Assembly (NCBI RefSeq): GCF_032884065.1
Contig: NW_027063679.1
Span: 1-64,000 of the forward strand
Direction of reading: 5' to 3'
Source: Artemia franciscana
Taxonomy: Eukaryota; Arthropoda; Branchiopoda; Anostraca; Artemiidae
Length of the DNA stretch: 64,000 nucleotides
Below, one piece after another: positions 3,189 through 61,760 of this stretch (its first letter is position 1; every line of letters starts with the position of its first letter). The translations under genes were made by a program, and so were the position numbers. The notes beneath the pieces are model-generated. The model saw only the letters and a list, made by a program, of their open reading frames with translations, was not told where the DNA came from and ran no database searches.

Positions 3189-6100
3189 CTGAAAAATAGT
3201 GTAAATAAATATACCGCAGGAAATAGACAATTTGAGAAAAAAAGAAGCAAAAATTGCTTACTTGCGAAAAACTCAAAAGTTCACGAATAATACAAAATGT
3301 AGGAAGCTCAGGGCAAAATCTTAAACTACTTTAAATTAAGGGGGTACGGACATGAAGGCCCCAAGCCTTCATGCGTATCTACTCTACTTTCCACCCAATT
3401 CTTTTTATACTCCAATCTGAGTATCCTTTATACAGAGTTCTCAAGTAAATTAAGCAAAAACATAAAACTTATACAACAAGCACTATTAAGAGATTTTTCC
3501 TTATTTCAAGGAATACCCCGCAAAGATTTAACATTTTTATGCTTCCTGTTTTATTTAATTACAACCTCTATATAGTGGTTCACATTTTATCTGCTTCCAC
3601 ATTTAACCAACCATAAGAAATAGCTCAACTGACCATTGCTATAAGGTTGAAGAAGGCTGAAAAACTTTAGGCACAAATAATAACAACAATTAACCTAAAT
3701 ACAAGGAAAGGGGTGGACGGCGAAATGCATTTTTCTAAAATTGGCGAGAGGGGAAATTTATTGTTTCTGTCAGTGGACAAAACAACAGCTGTATTGTTCA
3801 AAACCTAGGGAGAAGAGTATAAAAATCTAGGGTGGAAAAATCCAGGTCCATGGAGTAGACAAGAACAGCAGCTGCAACCTCTACAGGCCAACACAGCAGT
3901 AAAAGGTTCAAACCTAGGGGGAAGAGTAGAAAAGTCTAGGGTGGAAAAATCCAGGTCCATGGAGTAGACCAGAACAGCAGCTGCAAGCTCTACAGGCCAA
4001 CACAGCAGCAAAAGGTACAAACCTAGGGGGAAGAGTAGAAAAATCTAGGGTGGAAAAATCCAGGTCCATGGAGTAGACCAGAACAGCAGCTGCAACCTCT
4101 ACAGGCCAACACAGCAGCAAAAGGTTCAAACCTAGGGGGGAGAGTAGAAAAATCTAGGGTGGAAAAATCCAGGTCCATGGAGTAGACCAGAACAGCAGCT
4201 GCAACCTCTACAGGCCAACACAGCAGCAAAAGGTTCAAACCTAGGGGGAAGAGTAGAAAAATCTAGGGTGAAAAAATCTAGGTCCATGGAGTAGACCAGA
4301 ACGGCAGCTGCAACCTCTACAGGCCGACACAGCAGCAAAAGGTTCAAACCTAGGGGGAAGAGTAGAAAAATCTAGGGTGGAAAAATCCAGGTCCATCGAG
4401 TAGGCCAGAACAGCAGCTGCAATTTCTACAGGCCAACACAGCAACAAAAGGTTATATCAGTATCTTGTCTAGTAACCACAACTACCACAAACCCTTGAGG
4501 GTAAAAATGAGTTGAATGACAAAAACTAATGTCATTCTGCTTTATGTTATTTTATTCAGTTTTTTCTTTGTCCTTATAACTTTTGATTTGACAAAAAAAA
4601 AGAACTCAATTCGTCGCTCTTTGAAGCAACTGCGTAAAAGCTACAACTTTACTTGAATGAAAACTGACATTTAAATCAATTACGATACACAAAAACGGCA
4701 TGAATTTAACTTTCCATTGATAGTACATGCTCAAATTTTGAAAATAGCTGATTGCGGTTAGCTTTACGATAAGTTGTAACTACTTTGGGACTAATTGTAT
4801 CTAAAGACATAAAAAATGCATACCTCCAAGCAAAACCCCCTTCCTTCAAAAAATAAAATAAAAATTCCTGACCATTAATCCCACATATATAATTCCTATT
4901 ACATATGTAATTCCATTTTTATATTTAACGCTATTCACCTTTTTGTTGTTACCTTGACTGCTGATCTGGCCTACCTGCCCCCTCATAGTCCCATTGCCTA
5001 ATCGTAACAAATTAATTCGCGTTCATTTGGCTTGACCAATACAATGCCGGAGAAAAATGTCACACCTTATTTCAAGTTAAGTATACATAAAATTTGTAAA
5101 TGCAGCGATGTTGATTAAAAAAAGAGTTTGGTTTAGGAAAATAGTGAGCTCTCATCTTTTTTTCTAAAAGACAGTGATTTATTCCTACTAAAATTGTCAC
5201 AAAGTTAAGCTTCAAAGACGAAATCATTCCTCATCACACGGTAATCTTCAGAGAAATACCCAAAAAATCCGAAGCCGTTTTTTATAACCTCTCCTTAATT
5301 TTTCTATCGGATTATGATAGAAAAAAAATTCTAACCATTTTTACTAAAAACAAAATGAAAATATAAAAACAGGTAAAAAATATAATAAAATTGATCCAAG
5401 TAATATTTTTTTAATTTTCTTAAATTTGTTTATAAAATTATTAAAAATTATTTACCTATTAAAAAAAAGAACTTTTATCAGCTTTTAACAACCATGTCCC
5501 TCAATTTCAAAAATAACCAGTCTAAAATACCAAAACTCGTCCGTCAGACTTGTCTTTCAAAGTTATACGATTTACGCTACCTCCAAGGTGGGCAGGGAGA
5601 GATTCCCACCAGGGAATTACGGGGATAGCAACTCATTCCAACCTACTCAGAGAACTTGTTTCGGCTAAACAAGAGGGCAAACTTATGCTAACCTTCAGCT
5701 GGATAACCAGAACTCACGATTACTCTTTAAGTGTACCATACTAAATAAGTCTAAAAACATTTCTTTCTGAAAGCACACAAAGAAATCCAGTCCATCCAAG
5801 GGTGTGTGCGCCTCTATTTGAAGACCTGCGCTAGAGAAGAATCCTAAACGACAACTAATAACCTAAATTCTGCCAAAAGCCAGTAAATAGGGACGTTGTG
5901 ACAACACTGGAATGGACAGGAAAGTCCCTCCTCCAAGGCCTTATCCAGGATTTTTGTTCTGGAGGCGGTCTTTTTTAGGGGACAGGGGTACATATCTTTA
6001 AAAAAAATGCTAAAAAAACACATCAAAATTTTGTTTATATGCATTTTTGCAGCGTTTTTACGAACGGACAAAATGTCGATGAGGGGTTCAAACTTCCCAA

Positions 6101-9100
6101 ACCCCCTGGATATGGTCTTGCCCCCCCCCCACCAATGAAAGAATTGTCGACCCCCCTCCCTCTTTCTCTCTCACAAGAATAAAAAAATGGTGCCCTACAT
6201 GAACTGTTTCCAATTTGGCTTTCCAACCTTGTCAAACTGAACTCTTCACACCCCTTAAAGGTCTGACCAATGAAGGCCTATGTTTATTATCATAATTTTG
6301 ATTAACCCACTCATCACCATCAACAACTCATTACTTATTCAGTTATTTTTATTCAGCGGTTTTGTGAGTGGGAAAAGAGCAAAGCACTCCGTAATCAACC
6401 ATAAAATTAAATATCTGTTTCTTTTTTATTAAAAGTTTCATGTTTATACAATCCATGAATTTATAGTTCAGTCCAAATGTTAAACTACTGAAATTAAACG
6501 TTAGGTATGACAAAGAAGGCTGCATAGACTACTTTTCCCAAGGCGTTCAAGGATGATTTCCCTAATCTAGGAAACATTTCAATCAATCAATCAATCAAAA
6601 TCTTTATTAACCAAAAAACCACACAAGGGTTCAATATGGAGTAGATGAGATGACAAAAACAACAACAAACAAGAGTCAAGAGCTCATATGGTACTTGTGA
6701 CGAGGTTGGAAGAGCGAAGAGCCAAGTGCTTCTTCCCACCAAGTTTCATTACGATCTCCCCACTCTAAGCGTTTTCCAATATTTCCAGTTTCCCCCTCCA
6801 ACTCCCCTCAATGTCACCGGATCCGGTCGGGATTCACAATAAGAGCTCTGAGACACGAGGTCCTTCTAAATATCAAATTTCATTAAGATCTGATACCCCT
6901 TCGTAAGTTAAAAATACCTCATTTTTTCTAATTTTTCCAATTTAACCGCCCTTTCAATCCATAGATAGTCAAATCGGGGAAGCGACTATTTCTAATTAAT
7001 CTGGTAGGGTCTCTGATTCGCCTGCCATCTTTCAGCAATCGCTATATTGATCAGGTATCTAGTTTCAGATCTTCTTCATGTAAAAATTGGGGTGCTCCGG
7101 GATTCAAAACTGAGACCTCTCGCACCCTAAGCGAGAATCACACCCCTAGACCACAAGCCATACTTAAGAAAAACAATCGTTGGTTTTATCAGCAAATAAA
7201 ATTCTTCTCAGCTATCTTGTTCGCTCGCCCCCCCCCCCCACCAGATGGTCAAATCGGGAAAGAGACTATTTCTAATTTAATCTAGTGTGGTCCCTGATAC
7301 GCCAGCCAACTTTCATCGTTCTAGCTTATCTAGAAGTGCCCAAACTGGCGAATCGCCCCAATTCCCCTAAAGAGAGCGAATCCGGTCCGATTATGTCAAT
7401 AGCATATCTAGGACATGTGCTTATTCTTCCCACCAAGTTTCATCCCAATCTCTACACTCTAAGCGTTTTCCAAGATTTCCGGTTTCCCCCTCCAACTCTC
7501 CCCAATATCATCGGTTCCAGTCAGAATTTAAAATAAGGGCTCTGAGACACGAGATCCTTCTAAATACCAAATTTCATTAAGATCTGCTCACCCGTTCGTA
7601 AGTTAAAAATACATCATTTTTCTAATTTTCCACATAACTGCCCCCCCAACGTCACCAGATCTGGTCGGGATTTAAAATAAAAGCTCTGAGACACAATATC
7701 CTTCTAAATATCAAATTAAATTAAGATCTGATCACCCGTTCGTAAGTTAAAAGTAACTCTTTTTTCTAATTTTTCCGAATTAACCGTCCCATCCCCCCAC
7801 CCCCAGATGATCGAATCGATGAAACGACTATTTCTAATTTAATTTGGTCTGGTCCCTGATACGCCTGCCAAATTTCATCGTCCTAGCTTATCTGGAAGTG
7901 CCCAAACTAGCAAAACCGGGACCGACAGACAGAGAGGCCGACAGAAATTGCGATCACTATATGTCACTTGGTAAATAAAAGTCCCATAAGAACAAAACAA
8001 AGAACACGCTCACAAAGAAATATATACTACAAAAATTAGAGTCAAATATTTTTACTAACACATAGCAGGATGGAGGCTGTTTGTCATATCAAGCTTAGAA
8101 AATTAGCAACCACGACACTCCTCAAACACGGTTAGTGGTTCAGTTATCCCGTAGGCTGACACTAGTGTTTTGTTTCCAGCCCATAGGGGTATACACAAGA
8201 GAAATTTCGCGAAACGAAAATATAGAGATCTAATAGTCTTTTTATCAGTAGCCGTAAACACATTCCAAAACGGAGTCAAAGCGAGGACATGAGGCATCGC
8301 AAAAGCGTTGAACACACGGACAGGAATATGCCTATTCTAACTAGCTTTACAGCAAATAGCACACCAAACACTTTTCGAAGTTTCTCACTTAGATGAAAGA
8401 TAAGGAGAGCCCTTGTCGTTTATAAAATATCCCTTATCAGGAGACAGAGATACTTAATACAGGCAGATAATTGAACACTCTGATTTCCTAACTGTACGCA
8501 TCCAACATCACCGACAGATTTGCCGAAAGCAAGGACCTCGCTCTTCGAAGCATGAGAATTAAGACCAATTTCGGCATATTCCCTACTAAGCAGAGAAAAA
8601 CTTTCTTCCACAGACAGTACAGTTCTACTTAAATTCAGTACATCGTCAGCTTCATTGAGTATGGAAAGGTCCAAACCTTTAAAAACAAAACTAATTCTAG
8701 CCTTTTTTTGTAACTAGAATTATTTATGCTTAACAAGAGCTAAGAGCTCATATGGCACTTGTGACTAGGCATGTAACAAAATTCTATGAATAAATAGATT
8801 GATTTAAAAGGAAAATAAGAGGCTTAATGCCGGTCAGGATTTAAAATAAGAGCTCTGAGTCACGATGTCCTTCTAAATATCAAAATTCATTAAGATCCGA
8901 TCACCCACTCGTATGTTATAAATACCTATTTTTTTCTAATTTTTCCTCTCCCTTTAGCCCCCCAGATGGTCGAATCTGGGAAAACGACTTTATCAAGTCA
9001 ATTTATGCAGCTCCCTGACACGCCTGCCAATTTTCATCGTCCTAGCACGTCCAGAAGGACCAAACTCGCCAAATCACTGAACCCCTCCCCCCAACTCCCC

Positions 9101-61627: not shown

Positions 61628-61760
61628 GCTGAAAATATAACTATTCAAATAATCCTCTTGAAATTCTAATCCGTATTCATGCATATAAATCTTAGTCAGT
61701 GATTTATATTGGATCAGTAAACAAATCAACAGAAGTGTTTATTATATAAAAGCTGCAAAT

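Follow-up and report, generated by a model that had tools for sequence, protein, structure and literature searches.

In the 64,000-nucleotide stretch of the Artemia franciscana genome analysed here (the window), the first part of scaffold C1093 (681,242 bases), a 38.6-kb sequence that carries an F-box/LRR gene and part of the ARL6IP5 gene is followed, directly past a 100-N gap, by a second copy of itself. With a probability of roughly 0.93, this repeat is a false (heterotype) duplication, that is, a heterozygous overlap between two contigs set in series; in all likelihood, the second copy of the genes arose through an error of assembly rather than a true duplication. The contig to the left of the gap (window 1-43857) is called A, and the contig to the right of it, which continues beyond the window on C1093, is called B. 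Scaffold C1093 was analysed to position 104000 for the overlap, and the genome searched comprised 1,270,528,402 bases in 6,468 contigs.

Self-BLAST of the window revealed a same-strand match between 5249-21323 and 43959-61760 in seven pieces that are 96.2-98.8% identical; because of a tandem copy in B, the last two of these overlap in A. The gap (43858-43957, 100 N) is the sole run of N in the window. The sequence-only reading, which had described a block present twice with the second copy directly after the gap, sparse substitutions and a few large indels, was correct in these respects: global alignment of the two blocks yielded 225 substitutions and 40 indels over 15,426 aligned columns, with 11 of the indels being at least 8 bp long. 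Among the larger differences are a 1,511-bp insertion in B, the 780-bp tandem copy in B, and AT and T runs; moreover, A has one extra 208-bp unit relative to B, and pieces of a tandem-repeat region present in A are missing from B. The block was, nevertheless, misjudged in its bounds. A unit of 16-18 kb that truly ends at 21323/61760 is ruled out, as the apparent end is caused by an insertion of approximately 2.25 kb in B, past which, and past the end of the window, homology restarts at 21321 (C1093:64015) and runs on to 43856 (C1093:86357), the penultimate base of A. At the opposite side, homology begins at the second base of B (43959, corresponding to 5249). Hence the tail of A (5249-43857) overlaps the head of B (C1093:43959-86357, of which 43958-64000 lies within the window), and the overlap stops no more than one base short of either contig edge, with matches to the head of B covering 37,837 of the 38,609 bases of the tail of A. 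This filling of the overlap up to both edges is the main argument for a false duplication.

A third, collinear copy of the locus was found at 54.64-54.70 Mb of C4, a chromosome-size scaffold of 63 Mb. The order on C4 is 54642682 (base 2 of A), 54693153 (A 43844) and 54703854 (C1093:97896, in B), with indels between these points; thus the left flank, the locus and the right flank each occur once and in order on C4:54642682-54703854. The chained pieces of A are 91.6-97.8% identical to C4. Self-comparison of the examined 100 kb of C4 (at least 800 bp, at least 90% identity) revealed no long duplication, only four hits of 0.9-1.4 kb. The locus is therefore single where the assembly runs without a break, being found once within these 100 kb; genome-wide, the count is that of the F-box/LRR gene, for which a whole-genome search gave nine matches, six partial and three full-length. 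The latter are located at C1093:22276-22983 (A), C1093:64971-65678 (B) and C4:54665011-54665718; the copy in B, which is 99% identical, had been expected past position 64,000 by the sequence-only reading. The arrangement on C4 bears directly on an old dispersed segmental duplication, the copies of which would have come to lie on one scaffold by chance. Nothing speaks for it beyond the repeat itself, while the low divergence, the continuous overlap up to both contig edges and, unless C4 is misassembled, the presence of both flanks around one copy on C4 speak against it; this explanation was rejected on the shared flanks, and we give it almost no credence.

A true tandem duplication of about 38.6 kb on the C1093 haplotype, with its junction inside the gap and with C4 representing the unduplicated haplotype, would produce the same layout of left flank, copy, gap, copy and right flank. 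However, its junction would have to lie no more than one base away from the edge of either contig, and what stands between the copies is the 100-N gap and not a sequenced junction. The divergence of the three versions was compared over 34,356 columns, gapped or unchained positions being dropped (e.g., A 19198-21165, which is absent from C4). The differences amounted to 1.26% between A and B, 2.75% between A and C4, and 2.69% between B and C4. A and B agreed against C4 at 715 sites, a class inflated by the retained 36-38 kb region of A, which aligns poorly with C4 (approximately 7-10% different); A and C4 agreed against B at 203 sites, B and C4 against A at 223, and all three differed at seven. 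The divergence between A and B was patchy (0-3.5% per kb); the differences were clustered, with a variance-to-mean ratio of 3.81 per 500 columns that was reached in none of 2,000 shuffles; the longest run without a difference was 2,624 columns, compared to a maximum of 1,117 in 2,000 shuffles. In one region, 39.2-42.2 kb, B was nearer to C4 than to A: B and C4 agreed at 59 sites, A and B at 31, and A and C4 at 14, and the excess identified by the scan was reached in none of 1,000 shuffles. Such a pattern is what haplotypes from a recombining population show. Both the range of A-B divergence and the similarity of B to C4 in this 3-kb stretch would argue against a tandem duplication, although gene conversion or crossing-over could yield both of them; a polymorphic tandem duplication of this size, comprising the F-box/LRR gene and ARL6IP5 without its last exon, could be present on some A. 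franciscana chromosomes but not on others and exchange sequence between its copies and with the single-copy haplotype, which we consider very improbable. Such a duplication is also superfluous, given the residual duplication reported for the published assembly that matches the genome analysed (Jo et al., 2024, PMC11492255), and a true tandem duplication on C1093 is regarded as very unlikely.

Several observations weigh against an unmerged heterozygous overlap. First, there are three versions of the locus rather than two, so that a single diploid is insufficient and the explanation leans on a pooled sample; the sequence-only reading, which had suggested that two haplotypes of a single locus stand in series, remains the best account of the copies on C1093, but counted too few versions. 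Three versions fit the pool of 14 females used for the long reads of the published assembly rather than one diploid. Second, in blocks of 1,000 columns A and B were the closest pair in 26 of 34 (B and C4 in four, A and C4 in one, tied in three), and this closeness is also expected of a duplication within one haplotype. Third, sites private to C4 were even more unevenly distributed than the A-B differences (variance-to-mean ratio 7.08 per 500 columns); therefore, the mutation rate or the alignment quality varies along the locus, and part of the clustering is regional. Taken alone, patchy divergence between A and B is weak evidence, since the remainder of the clustering might equally stem from conversion or crossing-over between true duplicates. 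Fourth, A lies almost wholly within its alignment to C4, yet was kept by Purge Haplotigs, if the assembly is the same. Finally, the heterozygosity reported in a genome survey of the species, 0.655% (PMC7955100), is below the divergences found here. The differences between A and B are of the kind expected of alleles (substitutions, repeat lengths, and insertions with intact empty sites); diverged paralogs could show the same.

The copy on C4 may represent a third haplotype of the locus, which is the explanation we prefer. If it were instead a paralogous locus derived from an older segmental duplication, with A and B being alleles, the conclusion about A and B would be unaffected. We consider a paralog unlikely, although the distance of approximately 2.7% between C4 and both A and B speaks for it, as do the dimensions of the two scaffolds: the length of C1093 (681 kb) is about 2.6 times that of the stretch of C4 bracketed by its ends (264 kb), and the overlap copy accounts for only some 42 kb of this excess. 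Between C1093:115-660 kb and C4:54.716-54.886 Mb, either C4 is short by several hundred kilobases or C1093 contains extra sequence. Among 21 sparse probes of C1093, four matched the pieces of C4 compared (at least 200 bp, at least 92% identity). Two of these matches, at 660 and 676 kb, were long and collinear, C1093:660-662 kb (94.2-94.8% identity) and 676-681 kb (97.7-97.8%) corresponding to C4:54885794-54906253, while those at 115 and 300 kb were short, up to about 0.5 kb; no probe matched another at the same thresholds. For the repeat-rich probes at 300 and 445 kb, searches of the whole genome revealed no second copy of full length among the candidates scored (40 of 509 and 40 of 29,007, respectively), which again favours a paralog. 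On the other hand, C4 is collinear with C1093 on both sides of the locus and again at the 660 and 676 kb probes, B is nearer to C4 than to A at 39.2-42.2 kb, and a pooled sample supplies more than two haplotypes.

The genome analysed probably corresponds to the assembly of female A. franciscana reported as 1,270,721,445 bp in 6,486 scaffolds (Jo et al., 2024, PMC11492255), figures that exceed ours by 18 scaffolds and 193 kb. Its long reads came from 14 females; Peregrine served as the assembler and Purge Haplotigs as the haplotig filter, after which linked reads (10x, one female), Hi-C data (66 females) and RagTag were applied (Jo et al., 2024, PMC11492255). Heterozygous overlaps escape purge_haplotigs, according to Guan et al. 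(2020, PMC7203741), and the combination of pooled females with a filter blind to such overlaps could explain how one survived. We infer that A and B are allelic copies from the pooled animals. A would end and B would begin inside one locus, each with a different haplotype (approximately 1.3% substitutions and several insertion polymorphisms); the assembler would have left the overlap unmerged, the haplotig filter would have left it untrimmed, and the scaffolder would have lined up the two contigs with a gap of 100 N between them. In this way 38.6 kb of one locus, including the F-box gene and part of ARL6IP5, would be counted twice, with a third haplotype on C4. As C1093 is not of chromosome size, our guess is that the gap was introduced at the linked-read step.

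Comparable cases have been described. The heterozygous overlap addressed by purge_dups (Guan et al., 2020, PMC7203741) likewise involves diverged haplotypes, overlapping contig ends and sequence kept double, and in the heterotype false duplications of the Vertebrate Genomes Project (Ko et al., 2022, PMC9516828) a gap separates the copies, such a gap being among the listed marks of false duplications. However, purge_dups uses read depth, and further marks of heterotype duplications are a halved depth, k-mers present in one copy and discordant linked reads, whereas the overlap on C1093 was characterised by sequence comparison and involves three versions of the locus. In the diamondback moth, similarly, the use of pooled sisters left loci represented by several allelic contigs and inflated the assembly (PMC9526047), though in another species and with other reads and assemblers.

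The 1,511-bp insertion in B (approximately 1.5 kb) occupies 50464-51974, and its empty site is intact both in A (11971/11972) and in C4. It contains a tRNA-like match on the minus strand (51194-51253), the single Rfam match, while the tRNA scan predicted no tRNA genes; relatives of this insertion occur elsewhere on C4 (54657051-54657580 and 54716739-54718786). The insertion of approximately 2.25 kb in B fills the window from 61761 to 64000 and ends near C1093:64014; both A (near 21321) and C4 retain the intact empty site, and the insertion contains an internal direct repeat of 88% identity and an inverted repeat. The tandem duplication in B (59111-60641) is of about 745 bp, and its unit is single in A (19476-20204). 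At 16 of the 23 variable sites the two units of B agree against A, while A is identical to the first unit at five sites and to the second at one, and all differ at one. Both insertions, together with one at C4:54655991-54657574, lie between the A and T of an intact empty site and start with TC or, in the opposite orientation, end with GA; no obvious target-site duplication was found at any of the three. Helitron-like elements insert in such a way, starting with TC at an A/T site without target-site duplication. Helitrons constitute 8.81% of the A. franciscana genome (Jo et al., 2024, PMC11492255). Tandem arrays were also observed outside the overlap: six 109-bp units at 3796-4453, in an array also present in C4, and an array with a unit longer than 200 bp at C1093:100166-104000.

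Exons of ARL6IP5, a member of the PRA1 family, were placed by motifs on C1093:1-104000 and C4:54620001-54720000, and their bounds are approximate. The gene lies on the minus strand. In A it comprises exon 3 (3049-3180, motif 3154-3177), exon 2 (11190-11422, motif 11305-11331) and exon 1 (15310-15500, motif 15340-15366), and in B exon 2 (49657-49913, motif at about 49772) and exon 1 (55010-55200, motif 55041-55067); on C4 the motifs of exons 1, 2 and 3 are found at approximately 54660124, 54653970 and 54645824, respectively. The assignment of the gene, already made from the sequence, agrees with the exon motifs and with weak Pfam PRA1 matches, including those in exons 3 and 2 of A, all of which are below the curated cutoff. 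The lack of exon 3 in the second copy was likewise confirmed, as B starts between the motifs of exons 3 and 2: the exon 3 motif occurs once in each of the two regions searched, and none was found in B as far as C1093:104000. The open frame of exon 2 in B is longer by eight amino acids due to an in-frame expansion (49822-49868) with a GGCGTTGTT-like repeat, in which VVVGVVGVVGD replaces FSY. This expansion is absent from A and C4; it reflects a polymorphic coding repeat or else an error in the assembly.

The F-box/LRR gene of A is also encoded on the minus strand (22276-22983), with F-box and LRR_4 domains above the Pfam cutoff. Its 3' end (174 bases, 22276-22449) is found at six further places with 93-94% identity, five of them on C4 (53.1-54.6 Mb) and one on C4640. 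In five of these six copies, which were examined further, the match extends for about 1.1 kb downstream of the gene at 84-89% identity, either unbroken or split in two. The long pieces of the five are 92.5-99.7% similar to each other. The 3' end of the gene is apparently shared with a dispersed repeat.

The repeat is best read as an ordinary assembly artefact and not as a real feature of the genome. Counted at face value, it contributes two false genes, one for the F-box protein and a truncated one for ARL6IP5; with C4 included, the count of the F-box gene rises to three. The assembly comprises 1.27 Gb, versus genome size estimates for A. franciscana of approximately 867 Mb (k-mers) and 930 Mb (flow cytometry, cited in the same survey, PMC7955100), so that overlaps of this kind may be common. 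Analyses of copy number, gene families and sex-linked depth based on such an assembly deserve to be rechecked.

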